Below are positions 1-43,062 of a stretch of 43,062 nucleotides of DNA, piece after piece. This DNA comes from Planctomycetaceae bacterium (GTDB lineage: Bacteria; Planctomycetota; Planctomycetia; Pirellulales; Pirellulaceae). The notes under the pieces are model-generated. The model did no database searches. It was not told the DNA's origin and saw only the letters and a list, made by a program, of their open reading frames with translations. The DNA is taken from positions 8,578-51,639 of the forward strand of contig PBOG01000059.1 in assembly GCA_002724245.1 (NCBI GenBank), written 5' to 3'. Both the position numbers and the translations under genes were made by a program. Numbering within the stretch: position 1 is the first letter of the stretch; each line of letters begins with the position of its first letter.

Positions 1-1395
1 ACGCGAGCGGACTGCCACACCGGTGTCTTTCGAGGTCGGACAACGCAACCAGAAAAGCAACATCGCGAACACCACCGCCAGTGGAAACAGCTGATATTCT
101 GCGCGATACCAGAGTGTTTCGCCGTGCGCTGCGATCAAGGGCCACGTTGCCAATGCCACCGTCACGCTGACAGCCACCGGCACTCCGGCCCGCACGAACC
201 TCCCCTCACCAGACGCCGGTCGAGGATCCGGTACCACTGGTTTGGTTGCAATGTCTCGAATCCTGGAATCCTGCCCCTCCTCACGCGTTTGGCCCGGCGG
301 GAGCTCCGCCGGTGGCGAGTCCATTCGCTGTAAACGCCATGCCTGCAATTCATTGACTGGTAACGCATCCCCTGATGCCGCACTACGATCTTCCACGGCG
401 GCTGGCGGCTTCTCACGTTTCGGCGGCGGATGGTTGGGCTGCTGCTGCCGGCGAACCAACTCAGTCTCTCGTTGCTGCAGCTCGGCTTCGCGCGCATCAA
501 GCTCGTGTGCGCGGGTTTCCAACGCGCGTCCTTGCTCGGCACGTTGCACGTTCCAGGCAGCGGCGCGCTGCTGTTGTCTCGCTTGCAGCCTTTCCTCCCG
601 GGACCGTAATTTTTCCAGCAACCGTTCCTCGCGTTTGACCTGAACCTCGCGTGTCGCTAATTCCTGCAAGCGGAGTTCGCTGTTCGAGTCAGACTCGTCG
701 TCCGGATGCTCCAATACCGGTTCGGAATCGCTACGCTCCGGCCGCGCCATGGTACCCAGTAAGGTGAGTGAGGTCTCGCCGATCTGAATCGAGTCTCCCC
801 GCGAGAGCGAAGTCACCTCGTATCGCGTACCGTCTCGCCAGGTGCCCCCGCTGCTCAGTAAATCTACCACCCACAGAGAGTCCGCCGACCAATACAACAC
901 ACAATGCGCTGCCTCTAACTCCGCGTCGTCGATACGAAGATGACTGGGACGATCGTTTCCGACAATCGTTAGCCTGCCCAGTTGTCGGCGACGCGGAGAC
1001 TGCGTTCCGGACACAAACTGGACGACCGGCTTCTCGGTAGTTTCCGGTTGATCCCCAGCCAGTTGCCCCGACGCTTTTCCCGCAGCATCTGGACCGCCGT
1101 TTCCAGAAACGGATTTGACGTACAACGAGTGGGTGCCGAGCTCTAGCTCCTGGGTTGGTGTGACCCAGCGTCCTCGGCGGCGCGTCGGCTTGACGGACTT
1201 CCCCAATTCCACGCAATAGACACCATTACCGGTTGCGTGCAGGTACCAGCGGCGCCCACCGGTCGCTTCGTGTGGCAACACTACGTCTGCCGACTCGTCT
1301 GCTCCGATCCGCGCATAGGGGCGCGGTATCACCAGGCTCCGACTGGTACCAGGACCGTCAATCGTGAGTTGCAATCGCTGATCGCACCAGAACAT
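1..1395 (-). CDS. FHA-domain membrane protein (3' end outside window)
   Basis: The frame is open from an ATG at 1395 down to the window edge, giving 465 visible residues with no stop, so the C-terminus is missing. Residues 1-75 look like a degenerate FHA-type beta-sandwich. Residues about 140-215 are a clearer FHA domain, with a VGND start, an AAHCVL strand (normally SRxHA) and an SSGGTW turn (normally STNGT). Residues about 220-330 are rich in E, R, Q and L and are predicted coiled coil. A Pro-rich linker follows, then two hydrophobic helices at about 405-425 and 430-450. FHA domains bind phosphothreonine peptides, so the protein probably links Ser/Thr-kinase signalling to a membrane complex; that is inference. 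The start lacks a clear Shine-Dalgarno. No partner gene is visible. Confidence is high that it is coding and moderate for FHA. Confidence 0.8.
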   Translation of the reverse strand, partial: MFWCDQRLQLTIDGPGTSRSLVIPRPYARIGADESADVVLPHEATGGRRWYLHATGNGVYCVELGKSVKPTRRRGRWVTPTQELELGTHSLYVKSVSGNGGPDAAGKASGQLAGDQPETTEKPVVQFVSGTQSPRRRQLGRLTIVGNDRPSHLRIDDAELEAAHCVLYWSADSLWVVDLLSSGGTWRDGTRYEVTSLSRGDSIQIGETSLTLLGTMARPERSDSEPVLEHPDDESDSNSELRLQELATREVQVKREERLLEKLRSREERLQARQQQRAAAWNVQRAEQGRALETRAHELDAREAELQQRETELVRRQQQPNHPPPKREKPPAAVEDRSAASGDALPVNELQAWRLQRMDSPPAELPPGQTREEGQDSRIRDIATKPVVPDPRPASGEGRFVRAGVPVAVSVTVALATWPLIAAHGETLWYRAEYQLFPLAVVFAMLLFWLRCPTSKDTGVAVRSR

Positions 1396-20889: not shown

Positions 20890-21936
20890 ATGGAACTTCG
20901 GTTGCACGCGTTCGACCTGCCTTTGAAGCACACTTTCACCATTTCGCGTGGTTCAATCGACATCCAGCAGACGCTGGTCGTCGAACTTGCGGACCAAGGG
21001 CACTCTGGATTCGGTGAGGCCACGACCAACGACTATTACGGTTTCACCCTTGAAAACATGATCGCAGCCCTAGAAACGTTGCGGCCCCAAATCGAGGCGA
21101 CCCGCCTGGAAACACCCGAGGATTTCTGGGATGTCCTGCAACCGAAGCTCGCGGACAACCCGTTCGCCCACTGCGCACTGGACCAGGCAGCCTACGATCT
21201 GTGGGGGAAACAGCAGGGCCAGCCCGTCTACCGATTGTGGGGACTGCAACCTGATTCGTTGCCTTTGACAAATTACACCATCGGCATCGACTCGATTGAA
21301 GTGATGGTCCAAAAAATGAACGAGTTGCCCGACTGGCCCGTGTACAAGATCAAGCTCGGCACGTCACACGACCTGGAGATCGTCCGAGAATTGCGGCAAC
21401 ACACTGACGCCGCGTTTCGCGTTGACGCCAACTGTGGCTGGTCCGCCGCAGAGACGATCGATCATTCCCACGCACTCAAAGAGCTCAATGTCGAGTTCAT
21501 CGAACAGCCCCTGCCCGCCGACCAGTGGACGGAAATGGAGAAAGTATTCGCTGCATCCGCCTTGCCCGTGGTGGCAGATGAAAGCTGTATCATCCCGGGA
21601 GATGTCGAACGCTGTTACGGGCATTTCCACGCCATCAATATCAAGCTGGTCAAGTGCGGAGGCTTGACGCCAGCGCGTCGTATGATCGCTCGCGCCCGTG
21701 AACTCAACATGAAAGTCATGGTGGGATGCATGACGGAATCGACCGTCGGCATTTCCGCCATTGCACAACTGCTCCCGCTGCTCGACTACGTCGACATGGA
21801 CGGGGCTTTATTACTCTCCCGGGACATCGCCTCCGGAGTCACCATCGATCAGGGGGTTTGCCACTTTTCCAACGTGAACGGGTCGGGGGTTCAGTTGTTA
21901 GACGCTTCCACCGGCGATTCCGCATCCTCTTCCTGA
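20890..21936 (+). CDS. Enolase-superfamily dipeptide epimerase, DgcA-like (N-acyl amino-acid racemase)
   Basis: 348 residues. Muconate-lactonizing/dipeptide-epimerase branch of the enolase superfamily. An N-terminal capping domain is at about 1-120. The barrel carries the KxK acid/base motif Lys153/Lys155 (YKIKLG), metal ligands Asp179 (RVDANCGW), Glu205 (EFIEQPLP) and Asp230 (VVADES), and a second lysine at 252 or 255 (NIKLVKCGGLT), followed by GCMTESTVG and DMDGALLL. This is the L-Ala-D/L-Glu epimerase layout; as a partner of a DUF1611 protein it is more likely an N-acetyl-D-glutamate racemase. The start is 6 nt after the previous stop, so the two are cotranscribed. The last 46 nt overlap the 3' end of the giant gene on the other strand. 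Confidence 0.92.
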   Translation: MELRLHAFDLPLKHTFTISRGSIDIQQTLVVELADQGHSGFGEATTNDYYGFTLENMIAALETLRPQIEATRLETPEDFWDVLQPKLADNPFAHCALDQAAYDLWGKQQGQPVYRLWGLQPDSLPLTNYTIGIDSIEVMVQKMNELPDWPVYKIKLGTSHDLEIVRELRQHTDAAFRVDANCGWSAAETIDHSHALKELNVEFIEQPLPADQWTEMEKVFAASALPVVADESCIIPGDVERCYGHFHAINIKLVKCGGLTPARRMIARARELNMKVMVGCMTESTVGISAIAQLLPLLDYVDMDGALLLSRDIASGVTIDQGVCHFSNVNGSGVQLLDASTGDSASSS

Positions 21937-24900
21937 CGCTGCTGGGCGTAGTCATCATAGATCGGCAAATGCCGCCACCGAACCTCCAAAGAAAGCAGAT
22001 TCAACGTCGTGACGTAATGTCTTCCGGCATGCGGTCCCCAGCGGTCGGGAACCGGCATTCGAGGGTTCCAGCTTCCCGCCAACGGACCTTCTTTAAGTTG
22101 CTCGGTACGCAACATTGTTGACAACGGATCCCACCAGCGTTGCCATCTCTCCCCCCCCACATGGAACATAACCTGGGTCGCGTAATACCAGTAATAGGTA
22201 TCCCGCTGCGGCCGAGCTACGGTCCCATTGGCAGGTGGATGTTCCAGCAAATAGTCGGCACCACGCAGTAAATCCTGATTGTCGCGTCGCCACCCGGAAG
22301 CATAAAACCGCATCAACAACCCGACTGCGGTCATCGTCTTGCTGACTTCCCGCCCATGTCCTTGCTGGGGTGTATTGGGGGCAAAAGGATTGTAGCGATA
22401 CAGGTGCGGTTCACGTGGCCCCGCCTGAGCCAGCTCAAGCCAATTATGGAGTTTCGGCCAAGCCTCTGCGGGCACATCCAGCCCCGCCAGCCGCGCACTG
22501 TACAGTGCCATCAACATCCAGCCCGTCACCGACGTATCCGTCCCTTTGCCCGGCGAATAACGCCAGCCACCCCGCTCTGGATGCTGAGCCGCGAGAATGA
22601 AATCAATCGCCCGCTGCGCAGGTTCTTTCAGTGTCGGATCCTGGGTCATCCCATACGCCTCACAGAGCGCAATCGACGCAATACTATGACTGTAGAGCCA
22701 CGCCGCACTGATGGAATTCGTTTCCATCTCGATATACAAATCACCGTTTTCCCGCTGGTTGGCCACCAGAAATTTCAGGCCTCGATCGACCGTGTCAGCG
22801 TACTTCCCTTCGCGATGCGAGTAGGCACCTCCCGTGAAACAGAGCAAAGCCAGCCCGGTCGCCGCGGTATCGCTATTGATCGAAACGGTTTCATTAAATC
22901 CGCTGAGCTCCCAGCGTCCATCATCGACCTGATGCCTGGCCAGAAACATTAAACCTCGCTCGATCGCCGCTTCGGTCCGGGAACCGCGTGATGAAGCCCC
23001 TGCCCCTCCCATCGATCGTCGTCGTTCCTCACGGCGTCGGAAAGCTTCCACGGCGTTCGCTACTTTAGGACTGAAGTCCGGAAGTCCACCCAATTCACGA
23101 CGGGCGAAACGCACCGTCCGCGACTGCACCTGCTGCCGTTCCGCAATCGCACGACGATCTGGCAGCCCCGCCTCCCGTCCAGAAGTTCTTCCCAAGCCTC
23201 CGACACCACGAGGTGCATCGATCTCCACCGCCAGGTTCTCAGGCTGCCGCCGTCGGAGCATCACACCACCCTCCAACACACCCTCGCTGTCCTCACTGGT
23301 CACACCAGAAACGGCTTCCGTTGCTGCTCCAGCACCCGCCGGCCCATTCACCAGCGCTACGCTGGCCGCGCGTTTGGGTGGACTCGACCCTACCGACATT
23401 CCACCGGATTCCTGCGCCACGGCAGCCGATCGATCGACAAGCGATTGCCGTCGCCGTGGCCCCGACACTCTGCTGGTATCCCTGCCACGTGGCTTCAACT
23501 CCGCTACGGTCCCAGTCGGCCTGGCCTCACCTGCCGTTTTCCGGCCACCTACCGATTGCGATTGCAACGCCGTGTCACCGGTTTCATCGCGTTTCGCGTC
23601 CGCTGTCGACACCCCGGTCACCGCAGCCGTCACTGCCGGCTCCAAGAGTGGCCCTGCCGCTGTACGTCGTGGTGAACTACTGCCACCACCAACGGCCACC
23701 GGGCCCGCTGTTGCACCAGCCTGCTCCGTGCGCCGCATCACACGCCCACCAACACCACTTGAACCAGATTCCTCAGGCCGGTTTTGCCCCGACGGCTGGG
23801 TCGCCCCTGTAACTGAGCGCCGTTGCACCGTCGCTACCGCCGCAACTGGCCCCGGTTCCGCGGTCGTGGCGCCCGTCTGGCCACTCGAACTCGCCGGCGC
23901 CGCAACCGCTGCGGATTCCGGCGCGGCTGCGGTCTGTTGACGCTGTACCCGCGGGGCACTCTCACGGCCTTTTTCTGCCATCAACGGCCCAGCAGCATTG
24001 GGACCTTGGCCGGCTGCTTGCGACTGGTCCCGACGACTACGAGAGAGCGCCGCAACCACGCTCGCTGCGCTACTCTGCCTGGATTCCGCGGGCCCTGCCG
24101 CAACTGTGATTGCAGCTGACTCACTCTCCTCTCCCTCCGAATCGCGACGCACACGTGCCAATGCTTTTGAATCGGGTTGTGCCGAGAGTGGCGTTCCACC
24201 GCCATCCGCCGCAGGCGCCGTCGCCTGTTCAGCGACTAGATTGCTGTCGAGACTCGCCAGATCAGGCCGTCGACGGGCAACCTCTGTTTCAGGCGCTCGA
24301 GGATTGGCTGGCCCCTGACGCGGCTGCCCACCACCCGCAGGACTAAATTCGCGATCCGCGGCGACCAGACGTGTGGGACCCAGATCCACTTCCACTTGTC
24401 CGGCATCCACCGTCGGCCCCTGGGCTTCATTCGCTTGTGAACGCGTGATTGCGGACGCAGATGCTGAAGCAGAGGCAGCCGGGCGTTCACGACCCGCGCG
24501 CGTTGCTGTTTCTGTAGGCTGGGCTGACAGCACGGCGGCTGGCAGTGGCTGGTTTCCTCGCGCCCGCGGTATCTGCGCTGCCACCGCGCTCTGTAGTGCA
24601 ACTGCGCGAGGTTCTTCTTCCAGTGGACGCTTCCGAACCCGGGATCCAGACGCCAGCGCGGCGGGGTTCGCCCCAGTCCGTTGCCCGCGGTCCAGGTTGG
24701 GGCCGGCACCAGTCCCCGCAATACCAATCCTGCCAGGGGCTAATGCCGAAGCGTGTAATTCTGTCTGCGACGTGTTATTCGATTCACGGGCCTGCGACGA
24801 ACTGGGACGTGACAGCGCCACCGGCGACCGGACAAGCTCACTCTGTGCGAGCGCTCGCGAGGGTGCGCCTGTCGCCTGCAGGGGCGCGATGGTTGGAACC

Positions 24901-26591
24901 GCGGCCATGGCGGCCCGGCGATCCATGTCCCGGCGCCGCTGTACTGTGCGACTACGGACGTCCTCTGCACCCCGCGGCGCGGTCTCCGACCGAGATCTCT
25001 CACCGTCCGGTGACGTCTGGCGTACACGTTCTGCAAGTGTTGGTGTCGGTTCAGGTTGACGGGTCGCTTGCGGGCCCTGATTCGTCTTCACCTGCGCGAC
25101 CCGCGTCGGCACATTCAGTCCACTTGGCGCACTACTGCGTCGTTCCAATTCACGTGACGCAGCAGTTGCCTGGGGACCGTCTTCAGGCGGGGCGACCCTC
25201 CGCCGTGCCGGCGCACGGCCCGCAACTTTCGGGGATTCCAGCGGCGCGCGGTCGGCTGAGCGCTGCGGCATAGCTCCAGCCACTGGTGGCGACCTATTCG
25301 GCGTCCTGTTCACTGACTGGGCCGTCGCCACAGGTTCCGCCTGCCTCTGAGGCGCCTGCTCCGTATTGCGTTCCGGAACGGCTACCTCGCTCTGGCTGGT
25401 ACTCGCTGCAGGTCTCGGCGTGAGCTTCGCACGGGTCTCGGCACTGGGTTGAGGCAACGCGGCAATCTGCATTTGCTCAAGCTGTGGAGAGCGGCGCGAC
25501 ACGTTGCGACTTTGCGATTCTTCGTCTACGGCGATCGGTTCGGCTGTGGGCGCCACGACGGCCCGCTCTTCCGCAGGTGACTTGCGCTGCCGAGGAAGCG
25601 CCACGGGTTGAGGTTGTTCGGTGGCTGTATCTACCCGTTGCGTGTTCTCTGCCGGTACCGCGCGATTCACGCTGGTACGATTCGGCGGCTCGCGACGAGC
25701 GACAGCCCTGCTTTCCGGCTGAGACGTTACTTGCGGAGACTGCTCCGCAGCGGTCTTTCGCTGTACCGTCACAGCCGGCGTGGCTGCCGCCGACTGCGGC
25801 TGAACCTGAGAGATCCGTTGCTCTGGAGCCAGAGAGTCTTGACGCGTCACACGGGACTCCGTCGGCGTCATCGGGGCGGCGTTACTCGACGTCGCGGCCG
25901 CGGCCTGTGTTTGCGGTCGACTAAGTTGTGGTGTCGCTTGCTGGACGCGGCGGCTGAGAGGAGTGGGCTGGTCGGCTCTGCGGGGTTGCGCTTGATTCAG
26001 CTGACGCCGACGCATCACGTTCGGATCGACCGTCGGTACCGTCTGTGGCACCGGAACTGTCTGTTGTTTCGCTGCCTGCTCGACCTCTCTGGGCTGGCGT
26101 TCTGGCAACACTTGCTCTGGCACCGGATCGACCGACACCGATTCCTCAAGGGGCTTCAACCACTCGGGCTGACGTTCGGCATCACGACGGTAATACTCCG
26201 GGACGACAATTTCGCGGCGCGGACTGGAAGACGGCTGGGCAACCCGGAACATCAAGCGAGAAAAAACCTCCCGGTCCATCGCCAACACCAATGCGACGTT
26301 GCAAATAATACTCAGTACGATGGCGAGCTGAACGGGCCGCCGCAGTCCGCGACGTGCGTCGACGATCAACAGCAGAAGCATCAAGCTCCCGATGGCAAAG
26401 GGCAACGCCACAATTGCCGTCCAGGCGTTGGCATACCAGCGTGCGTCATCGAATTCGAGATACGCGTCGATCACGCCGCACAAGAAGCCACCGAACAACA
26501 CCAGGGCCAGAAACGTCGGCCACAAATGGTCGTCGAAGGTTTTGCGGTATTCACGTTGGACCTTGCGAATTACCCGACGTGGGTTTCCCAT
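21891..26591 (-). CDS. Giant membrane-anchored disordered protein with C-terminal terpene-cyclase-like (QW-motif) barrel
   Basis: 1566 residues. Three N-terminal hydrophobic helices lie at about 24-45, 54-77 and 87-105. Residues about 120-1190 are low complexity, dominated by Ala, Arg, Pro, Gln, Ser, Thr and Val with almost no aromatic residues, so intrinsically disordered. Residues about 1205-1545 form a helical alpha/alpha barrel of the squalene-hopene-cyclase/prenyltransferase type, with QW-like motifs (HQVDDGRW, NQRENGDLY, AQHPERGGWRYSP) and repeated helices such as DTAATGLALLCFTGGAYSHREGKYAD and VTGWMLMALYSARLAGL. No DxDD cyclase motif was seen, so a binding role is as likely as catalysis. 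GGAGC lies 6 nt before the ATG at 26591. It is divergent from an ABC transporter. Confidence 0.9.
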   Translation of the reverse strand: MGNPRRVIRKVQREYRKTFDDHLWPTFLALVLFGGFLCGVIDAYLEFDDARWYANAWTAIVALPFAIGSLMLLLLIVDARRGLRRPVQLAIVLSIICNVALVLAMDREVFSRLMFRVAQPSSSPRREIVVPEYYRRDAERQPEWLKPLEESVSVDPVPEQVLPERQPREVEQAAKQQTVPVPQTVPTVDPNVMRRRQLNQAQPRRADQPTPLSRRVQQATPQLSRPQTQAAAATSSNAAPMTPTESRVTRQDSLAPEQRISQVQPQSAAATPAVTVQRKTAAEQSPQVTSQPESRAVARREPPNRTSVNRAVPAENTQRVDTATEQPQPVALPRQRKSPAEERAVVAPTAEPIAVDEESQSRNVSRRSPQLEQMQIAALPQPSAETRAKLTPRPAASTSQSEVAVPERNTEQAPQRQAEPVATAQSVNRTPNRSPPVAGAMPQRSADRAPLESPKVAGRAPARRRVAPPEDGPQATAASRELERRSSAPSGLNVPTRVAQVKTNQGPQATRQPEPTPTLAERVRQTSPDGERSRSETAPRGAEDVRSRTVQRRRDMDRRAAMAAVPTIAPLQATGAPSRALAQSELVRSPVALSRPSSSQARESNNTSQTELHASALAPGRIGIAGTGAGPNLDRGQRTGANPAALASGSRVRKRPLEEEPRAVALQSAVAAQIPRARGNQPLPAAVLSAQPTETATRAGRERPAASASASASAITRSQANEAQGPTVDAGQVEVDLGPTRLVAADREFSPAGGGQPRQGPANPRAPETEVARRRPDLASLDSNLVAEQATAPAADGGGTPLSAQPDSKALARVRRDSEGEESESAAITVAAGPAESRQSSAASVVAALSRSRRDQSQAAGQGPNAAGPLMAEKGRESAPRVQRQQTAAAPESAAVAAPASSSGQTGATTAEPGPVAAVATVQRRSVTGATQPSGQNRPEESGSSGVGGRVMRRTEQAGATAGPVAVGGGSSSPRRTAAGPLLEPAVTAAVTGVSTADAKRDETGDTALQSQSVGGRKTAGEARPTGTVAELKPRGRDTSRVSGPRRRQSLVDRSAAVAQESGGMSVGSSPPKRAASVALVNGPAGAGAATEAVSGVTSEDSEGVLEGGVMLRRRQPENLAVEIDAPRGVGGLGRTSGREAGLPDRRAIAERQQVQSRTVRFARRELGGLPDFSPKVANAVEAFRRREERRRSMGGAGASSRGSRTEAAIERGLMFLARHQVDDGRWELSGFNETVSINSDTAATGLALLCFTGGAYSHREGKYADTVDRGLKFLVANQRENGDLYIEMETNSISAAWLYSHSIASIALCEAYGMTQDPTLKEPAQRAIDFILAAQHPERGGWRYSPGKGTDTSVTGWMLMALYSARLAGLDVPAEAWPKLHNWLELAQAGPREPHLYRYNPFAPNTPQQGHGREVSKTMTAVGLLMRFYASGWRRDNQDLLRGADYLLEHPPANGTVARPQRDTYYWYYATQVMFHVGGERWQRWWDPLSTMLRTEQLKEGPLAGSWNPRMPVPDRWGPHAGRHYVTTLNLLSLEVRWRHLPIYDDYAQQRQEEDAESPVEASNN

Positions 26592-41069: not shown

Positions 41070-43062
41070 ATGGCAAGAGTGAAAGCCGTCTGGGGAATCG
41101 ATATTGGTCAGTGCGCCTTGAAAGCACTTCGCTGCCGTCGAGACGGAAGCGAAGTCGTTGCCGAGGCCTTCGATTACATCGAATACCCAAAAATTCTCAG
41201 CCAGCCGGAAGCAGAACCGGAAAAGCTGATTCAAGAATCACTCGAGAAATTCCTTTCGCGTAATGACGTCAAAGAAACTCATATTGCTTTGGCAGTCCCC
41301 GGTCAAAGCGGACTGGCGAAGTTCTTCAAACCACCGCCAGTTCCGACGAAACAGATCCCTGAAATCGTCAAGTACGAAGCGCGCCAGCAAATCCCATTCG
41401 ATCTGGAAGATGTCATTTGGGATTTCCAGCAAATGCGCGGCGGAACAATGCACGAAGGCATTGCCATGGACACCGAGGTCGGCCTGTTCGCGATGAAACG
41501 CGATCAGGTCTACCGCGCGTTGCGGCCGATGCGCCGATGCGGGCTCGAGCTCGACACCCTGCAACTCGCCCCCATATCGATCTACAACTTCGTCATCTAC
41601 GACCTGCTGCAGGAACGTCTTTACGACGAACTCGATCCGGATGATCCACCCGACTCACTGGTGGTCCTTTCACTCGGAACCGAAACCACCGATCTGGTAA
41701 TCACAAATGGCTTCCGGCTGTGGCAACGCAGCATTCCGGTAGGAGGCAGCCATTTCACGAAGCAACTCACCAAAGACATGAAGCTCACCTTCGCCAAGGC
41801 TGAGCACCTCAAGCGGAACGCACGCAAAGCCGAAGACCCAAAACAAGTCTTCCAGGCAATGCGACCGGTGTTCAATGACATGGTCACCGAGGTCCAACGT
41901 TCGATCAGCTATTTCCTCGGCATCGATCGCCAGGCCAAAATCAACGGTGTCCTGTTACTCGGTAACACGGTCAAGCTTCCTGGCCTGACGCAGTATCTGG
42001 CCAAGAATCTCGGTTACGACGTCATCCCATTCGACGGGTACACACGCCTCAACGGTCAGGAGGTCGTTAACTCGTCCGCCTTCCGTGACAATTACCTGTC
42101 ATTTGGTGCCAGTTATGGGCTTTGCCTGCAAGCGTTAGGACAAGCCGACCTCAAGACCAACCTGATTCCCAAGGAGATGGTCACCGAGCGGCTGGTACGC
42201 GCCAAGAAACCATGGGCGCTCGCGAGCGTTGCCAGCCTGCTGCTGGCCTGCTCATTCAGCTTCTTTTCCGCCTACAGCGATTGGAATGGCGTCCGTAAAG
42301 AAAAGAACATTGGCGGTGTGACTTGGGGCGAAGCCGAAAACCAGGTCAAACAAGCGCAGAGTCAAAGCTCTGCAAAAATGGGCGAACATGACGCCAAAAA
42401 GAACAACCTCGACAAACTGAAAGCCATCGGCAATCAATTGGTTAGCAATGGCGAACGACGCCTATTGTGGATGGAGATGCTCACGGCGTTAAACAACAAC
42501 ATCCCAGTACATCCGGTCGATGCGCAAACGCCGCACAGTGTGTTTCTTGACCCCGAAAAGATTCCATTCGACAAACGGCAAGATATTCAAATTCGCTATA
42601 TCGAGTCAAAATACTACGAAAAACTGGCCGACTGGTTTACGGATGATGTAGCGCAACTCTATACGAAGAACAAGAGTGAGCTGCAGCGACTCTATCCCGC
42701 GGTCTACGCGACGCGTTTCCCGGAAGAAGTGAAAGAGGCCGCCAAGGGCAAGAACAGCAAGAAAAAGGCCGTCAAGCCAGACGGCGACGGCTGGGTCATC
42801 GAAATGGAAGGCTTTCACTTCTACAACACCTTGGAAGACGGCAAAGGACATCTCTCCGAGGAATTCGTACAACGCACCCTCATGCGCAACCTGTTTTTCG
42901 GCAAGGTGCAATTACCGGATGGGAACTACTCTTTGCAGGAAATTGGCATCACCTACCCAGTCATGGTCAAAAATGGCGAAGTGGAATGGGAACACATGGA
43001 GTCAACGACCGGCAGCAACTCGGGGCTGGCGGGCGGCGGTGGAATGGGCGGTGGAATGGGCG
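41070..43062 (+). CDS. pilM: PilM-PilN fusion, type IV pilus assembly (3' end outside window)
   Basis: 664 residues are visible and the frame runs off the window. Residues about 1-355 are an actin-like PilM ATPase (VWGIDIGQCALKAL, VPGQSG, KYEARQQIPFDLEDVIWDFQ, SLGTETTDLVI, VGGSHFTKQL, GVLLLGNTVKLPGLTQYLAKNLG). PilM is normally about 350 residues and cytoplasmic. Here it continues into KTNLIPKE (NLIP at 364-367), one membrane helix (about 381-402), a coiled coil and RRLLWMEMLTALNNNIP, which is the layout of PilN: the N-terminal NLLP peptide that docks on PilM, a helix, then the periplasmic domain. A Gly/Met-rich tail begins near 655. It helps align the pilus or secretion machine across the inner membrane. 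GGGGAG lies 10 nt before the ATG. Confidence 0.92.
   Translation, partial: MARVKAVWGIDIGQCALKALRCRRDGSEVVAEAFDYIEYPKILSQPEAEPEKLIQESLEKFLSRNDVKETHIALAVPGQSGLAKFFKPPPVPTKQIPEIVKYEARQQIPFDLEDVIWDFQQMRGGTMHEGIAMDTEVGLFAMKRDQVYRALRPMRRCGLELDTLQLAPISIYNFVIYDLLQERLYDELDPDDPPDSLVVLSLGTETTDLVITNGFRLWQRSIPVGGSHFTKQLTKDMKLTFAKAEHLKRNARKAEDPKQVFQAMRPVFNDMVTEVQRSISYFLGIDRQAKINGVLLLGNTVKLPGLTQYLAKNLGYDVIPFDGYTRLNGQEVVNSSAFRDNYLSFGASYGLCLQALGQADLKTNLIPKEMVTERLVRAKKPWALASVASLLLACSFSFFSAYSDWNGVRKEKNIGGVTWGEAENQVKQAQSQSSAKMGEHDAKKNNLDKLKAIGNQLVSNGERRLLWMEMLTALNNNIPVHPVDAQTPHSVFLDPEKIPFDKRQDIQIRYIESKYYEKLADWFTDDVAQLYTKNKSELQRLYPAVYATRFPEEVKEAAKGKNSKKKAVKPDGDGWVIEMEGFHFYNTLEDGKGHLSEEFVQRTLMRNLFFGKVQLPDGNYSLQEIGITYPVMVKNGEVEWEHMESTTGSNSGLAGGGGMGGGMG

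Follow-up and report, generated by a model that had tools for sequence, protein, structure and literature searches.

Do some planctomycetes build the pilus proteins PilM and PilN as a single chain? PilM and PilN are usually two proteins, joined via a short peptide. At one contig end of a Planctomycetaceae bacterium, a long open reading frame carries a PilM domain followed by PilN-like features. The window, meaning the whole stretch of DNA analysed here, comprises 43,062 nucleotides (positions 8578-51639 of the 51,639-bp contig C54, PBOG01000059.1, assembly GCA_002724245.1), and its end is the end of the contig. The frame (41070-43062, plus strand) opens at ATG 41070, with TTG 41061 as an alternative start, and meets no stop before the window ends.

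Because the contig stops there, the gene is truncated. About 105 residues are gone, including the last predicted strand. A complete copy from the same genus, 92% identical and 770 aa long, continues as a Gly/Met-rich linker and a strand (RFTFTVQFIWKP), so residues 400-660, where the original prediction placed the PilN fold, are not the entire PilN-like region. Neither the missing 3' part nor the genes downstream were found in the organism's own assembly. The contig breaks off (43062) inside a Gly/Met-rich repeat of the gene, and both same-genus contigs (L041, L042) end inside the next gene in similar repeats; such repeats probably break assemblies. Elsewhere in the window, a 1566-aa protein (21891-26591, minus strand) has a long low-complexity N-terminal half rich in Ala, Gln and Arg and a repeat-containing C-terminal half.

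The PilM half and its junction

The N-terminal half is recognised as PilM by two models. PF11104 (PilM_2) matches residues 9-354 (41094..42131, plus strand) at 3.2e-29 and 102.4 bits against a cut-off of 27, and TIGR01175 (pilM) scores 134.2 bits against a cut-off of 133. The Pfam boundary agrees with the domain end near residue 355 that was originally proposed. Structural comparison used a full-length AlphaFold2 model of the 770-aa relative (mean pLDDT 82). Solved PilM structures rank at the top (2ych, Z 34.2 over 330 residues; 3jc8, 33.8; 5eou, 32.1), with FtsA below them at Z 30 or less. In Foldseek, the predicted model matches 5eou at 4.6e-25, whereas cytoplasmic EpsL reaches 1.3e-9, the GspL domain being a far weaker match. 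Judged on this model, the N-terminal half is nearer PilM than GspL.

The PilM domain is followed by NLIP (residues 364-367; 42159..42170, plus strand), the counterpart of the cytoplasmic NLLP of PilN. A predicted membrane helix comes next (residues 382-400; 42213..42269, plus strand), assigned from hydropathy, conservation and an AlphaFold2 helix at 368-405; W382, part of an invariant KKPW, opens the single strong hydrophobic stretch. AlphaFold2 places a long helix or coiled coil at residues 419-477 (42324..42500, plus strand); it aligns to the PilN helix that precedes beta1 and contains RRLLWMEMLTALN, which starts at residue 463. The predicted series of NLIP, membrane helix, coiled coil and RRLLWMEMLTALN segment is thus all present in one frame. 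An NLLP-type cytoplasmic peptide stands before one membrane helix, here after PilM and not at the start of a protein.

The joint resembles one that was engineered. The crystal structure 5EOU is a chimera of Pseudomonas aeruginosa PilM and PilN residues 1-12 (PilM:PilN1-12). The family profile puts its nLvP on the NLLP of this construct, in register, and the structural alignment runs from model 4..368 on 5eou_B 10..366 (Z 32.1), through the added PilN peptide. Since both alignments cross that peptide, the natural joint matches the engineered one in position and spacing. Sequence and model together suggest that NLIP takes the place of the chimera's NLLP, and it might dock in cis rather than onto a neighbouring chain.

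The fusion is conserved. A scan of genome contigs yielded 576 confirmed relatives; the named records among 80 of these are Pirellulaceae and other Planctomycetota. In 59 of 60 relatives, single-contig genomes included, the fusion occupies one open frame with no internal stops, which argues against chance. Complete copies span roughly 700-950 aa and end with a Gly/Pro/Met-rich linker and then a conserved strand, FxVQFxW. Across 69 aligned sequences, L365, P367, R374 and KKPW are invariant and E369 is nearly so, while position 364 is Asn in 46, Ser in 22 and Thr in one. Ser as the first residue of NLxP is seen in many Rhodopirellula/Rubripirellula-type sequences, with L and P constant.

The C-terminal half

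Modelled alone with AlphaFold2, the C-terminal part gives a pLDDT of 80.4 and a pTM of 0.69. The predicted order is a long helix, a strand, an inserted helical stretch, a strand, a helix, a strand, a disordered linker and a strand. In both the whole-chain and the C-terminal models, with high local confidence, the predicted core is the alpha-beta-beta-alpha-beta-beta order of PilN plus two insertions. On the plus strand, predicted beta1 (residues 506-516; 42585..42617) is separated by a helical insertion relative to PilN (residues 519-559; 42624..42746) from predicted beta2, GWVIEMEGFH (residues 574-583; 42789..42818), in which H583 is invariant and G574 and W575 are near-invariant. The predicted second core helix (residues 596-610; 42855..42899) and beta3 (residues 627-635; 42948..42974) follow. 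Predicted beta4, residues 717-726 in the relative, falls beyond the end of the contig.

Direct tests of this half give weak results. The PF05137 (PilN) search that the original prediction proposed as a check matched none of 61 C-terminal sequences, and it matched nothing in the organism's own genome. The predicted core nevertheless has the PilN strand order, so the lack of a PilN fold that would have counted against the original prediction is not what the model suggests. PF05137 is a weak detector, matching even the accepted PilN of Thermus at a relaxed E-value only. Foldseek found no significant match to the C-terminal model in the PDB; the Thermus PilN structure 4bhq reaches Z 5.0 with 92 of 109 residues aligned to the predicted model, a score shared with phage tail terminators. 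The PilN profile gives no significant match to the C-terminal alignment before trimming. With the insertions removed, the comparison gives P 2.1e-5 (local) and 3.2e-5 (global), values that are supportive and not proof because the hypothesis steered which parts were trimmed. Of 200 column permutations, not one scored as high as the trimmed core, and omission of the coiled coil gives P 5e-4. The next gene's family, compared without such insertion trimming, does not match the PilN profile. Taken from sequence and model, the C-terminal half is most likely a divergent PilN.

Searched alone in 199 genomes of the phylum, the C-terminal domain matched in 12, all of the same class and all in frames longer than 700 aa, except for the organism's own truncated copy (681). 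No stand-alone copy was found among these 199 genomes, nor any match outside the class, where more divergent versions may exist. One apparent stand-alone domain (G047) sits at a contig edge and was rejected as a truncation.

Other Planctomycetota provide a bridge to recognised PilN. Among the PF05137 matches listed in the phylum, 78 of 127 lie in frames of at least 400 aa; in the long-frame proteins scanned, PilN was matched in all nine and PilM_2 also in five. The full-length family profile matches an alignment of planctomycete PilN-matching proteins at 99.3% (E 9e-21), over a span running from the start of PilM through NLLP, the membrane helix and the coil to the helix before beta1. Four such proteins (L124, L125, L131 and L133; 480-600 aa) carry a PilM-like domain and then a Pfam-recognised PilN, and L131 (592 aa) exceeds both Pfam cut-offs. 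Like the window's gene, fusions of the L131 type encode PilM_2, NLLP and PilN in that order in a single frame; unlike it, they are shorter, have a canonical PilN domain and are distant in sequence, and their operon contexts differ in the loci seen. Some other genomes of the phylum have canonical separate PilM and PilN at another locus.

A second PilM-like paralogue occurs in relatives of the order (L188:823-2970, L189:789-3002, L190:814-3309, L191:1367-3541). Its parts are zinc-ribbon motifs, helical repeats, a stretch similar to the end of PilM (with NLLP next in L188 and L190) and, after these, an actin-like PilM domain; no membrane helix is evident. The arrangement suggests a soluble protein in which a PilM-NLLP unit was permuted or duplicated. 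These second long frames of Pirellulales were considered as a bridge to PilN and rejected for their different, soluble architecture.

Gene neighbourhood and known systems

The gene upstream of the fusion lies on the opposite strand, and the downstream order comes from more complete relatives. There, two one-helix proteins follow the fusion, the first about 430-730 aa long and the second about 540-880 aa, and several of these relatives next encode a secretin related to PilQ, GspD and Amuc_1098. The product of the next gene begins MDQxKxxL..FWI and lacks NLxP. A separate pilN next door, an arrangement that would have counted against the original prediction, did not appear in the relatives, where this was tested: in 54 with intact downstream DNA, the next gene encodes a one-helix protein with no NLxP or PilN profile match. 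The next gene's family retrieved nothing relevant when its profile was searched against the PDB, so its PilO-like label is drawn from position and architecture. We infer a gene order of M(N)-O-P-Q, in which O and P are assigned from order and architecture only.

Other pilus genes lie elsewhere. PilB and PilT adjoin in the organism's own genome, and PilT exceeds its cut-off in 60 of 60 relatives. The same genome has a separate type II secretion system (T2SS)-like locus on contig C30 (L005:1389-16641) with E, F, pseudopilin, K-, L-, M- and D-like genes. The locus encodes a 577-aa L-like protein that also matches PilM_2 and carries a membrane helix, giving the genome two PilM-plus-anchor proteins.

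A PilM-PilN fusion is already known from the T2SS. PulL/GspL has been described as such a fusion (PMC10191384), and PilMN as the orthologue of GspL (PMC4471445), a precedent that the original prediction did not mention. The planctomycete protein likewise joins PilM-like and PilN-like halves in one chain, but here the N-terminal half is PilM proper, NLxP is retained at the joint and PilT is encoded in the relatives' genomes, whereas the T2SS has no PilT. The cytoplasmic domain is not nearer GspL, and, judging from the upstream gene and the downstream order in relatives, the gene is not in a gsp operon.

The closest known system is Amuc_1101 of Akkermansia muciniphila, named PilM in the papers examined and not described there as a fusion. 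Its NCBI family model, NF045709, is the best NCBIfam match (3e-52, residues 4-482) and reaches further than the pilM model; PilM, membrane helix and coil were thus covered by a known family. The genes around Amuc_1101 form a type IV pilus cluster that includes a secretin. The match stops, however, before the PilN-like core, and at 178 bits against a cut-off of 650 the fusion falls outside the curated family.

In type IVa pili (Thermus, Pseudomonas, Myxococcus), PilM and PilN are separate proteins that share with the fusion the PilM fold, an NLLP-type peptide, a single membrane helix, a coiled coil and, as far as its model predicts, the alpha-beta-beta-alpha-beta-beta order. They are two chains where the planctomycete protein is one, and its core has a helical insertion plus a long linker rich in Gly and goes undetected by PF05137. 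A limited literature search found no published report of PilM fused to PilN in a type IVa pilus.

Interpretation and significance

We judge, at a probability of roughly 0.8, that in this gene PilM is naturally fused to a divergent PilN that carries insertions, and that the product would serve as a stator socket, with NLIP in the groove and a PilO-like partner. The observed basis is one chain, a conserved motif, the relatives' gene order, a fold order predicted by modelling and the presence of PilT alongside the fusion. PilM is the cytoplasmic socket for PilB and the competing PilT (PMC11656802) and links to the periplasm via PilN (PMC6325625). In the fused protein a single chain would take on both tasks. 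The cytoplasmic actin-like half might be the socket for extension and retraction ATPases, and NLIP would occupy, or could occupy, the PilM groove that binds the NLLP of PilN. The chain would then cross the inner membrane to the coiled coil and a periplasmic domain of permuted ferredoxin-like type, which might partner with the PilO-like protein that the next gene encodes and, via the third protein, with the secretin.

Three other explanations bear on this reading. Joining of two genes by misassembly or a lost stop codon is suggested by the gene lying where a contig of the draft assembly stops, and is refuted by its recurrence, free of internal stops, in 59 of 60 genomes that include single-contig ones. 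It is highly improbable that the protein is the GspL/PulL of a type II secretion system, in which a PilM-PilN fusion is the rule: the overall architecture is the same and the neighbouring secretin of one relative scores 86.5 bits for GspD against 82.7 for PilQ, but the N-terminal half is far closer to PilM and passes PilM cut-offs, the operon lacks GspC/E/F/G-K, a separate T2SS-like locus on another contig has its own L- and M-like genes, and PilB and PilT are present.

A PilM joined to a lineage-specific periplasmic domain non-homologous to PilN, the real PilN being lost, unrecognised or elsewhere, would explain the silence of PF05137 and the lack of a significant fold match. The NLxP motif, the strand order, the place of PilN in the gene order and a colinear profile match (P about 2e-5) argue against such a domain, as does the weakness of PF05137 as a detector, and we consider it quite unlikely.

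On the preferred reading, a PilM fused to a divergent PilN, one chain means a fixed 1:1 ratio of PilM to the PilN-type arm and a PilM permanently on the membrane. The original prediction went further, holding that assembly cannot be controlled by PilM leaving PilN. The tether and the ratio stand, but tethering leaves the peptide free to dock and undock, so a bar on control at the PilM-PilN joint does not follow. In the published view (McCallum 2016), PilN binding is reported to alter the structure and partners of PilM and not just to recruit it; that view does not hold that PilM must leave. A bolder proposal, that throughout the class a retracting type IVa pilus works with PilM covalently joined to PilN, the tethered NLxP being an intramolecular latch whose docking and undocking decides whether PilB or PilT may occupy the socket, is speculative and seems doubtful.

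Because a related secretion machine is known to fuse both components, the planctomycete protein is a useful natural variant and no new machine. The fusion appears to be made as one chain in planctomycete genomes that also have a pilus retraction motor, making it a natural experiment on the pilus stator. Should every PilT-using pilus of this kind have PilM tied covalently to PilN, release of PilM could not be a general need for the switch between extension and retraction. The fusion also lends evolutionary backing to the view of GspL as PilM plus PilN, offers a single-chain PilM-PilN for structural work and hints at what the unannotated C-terminal half does in proteins called only PilM in databases.
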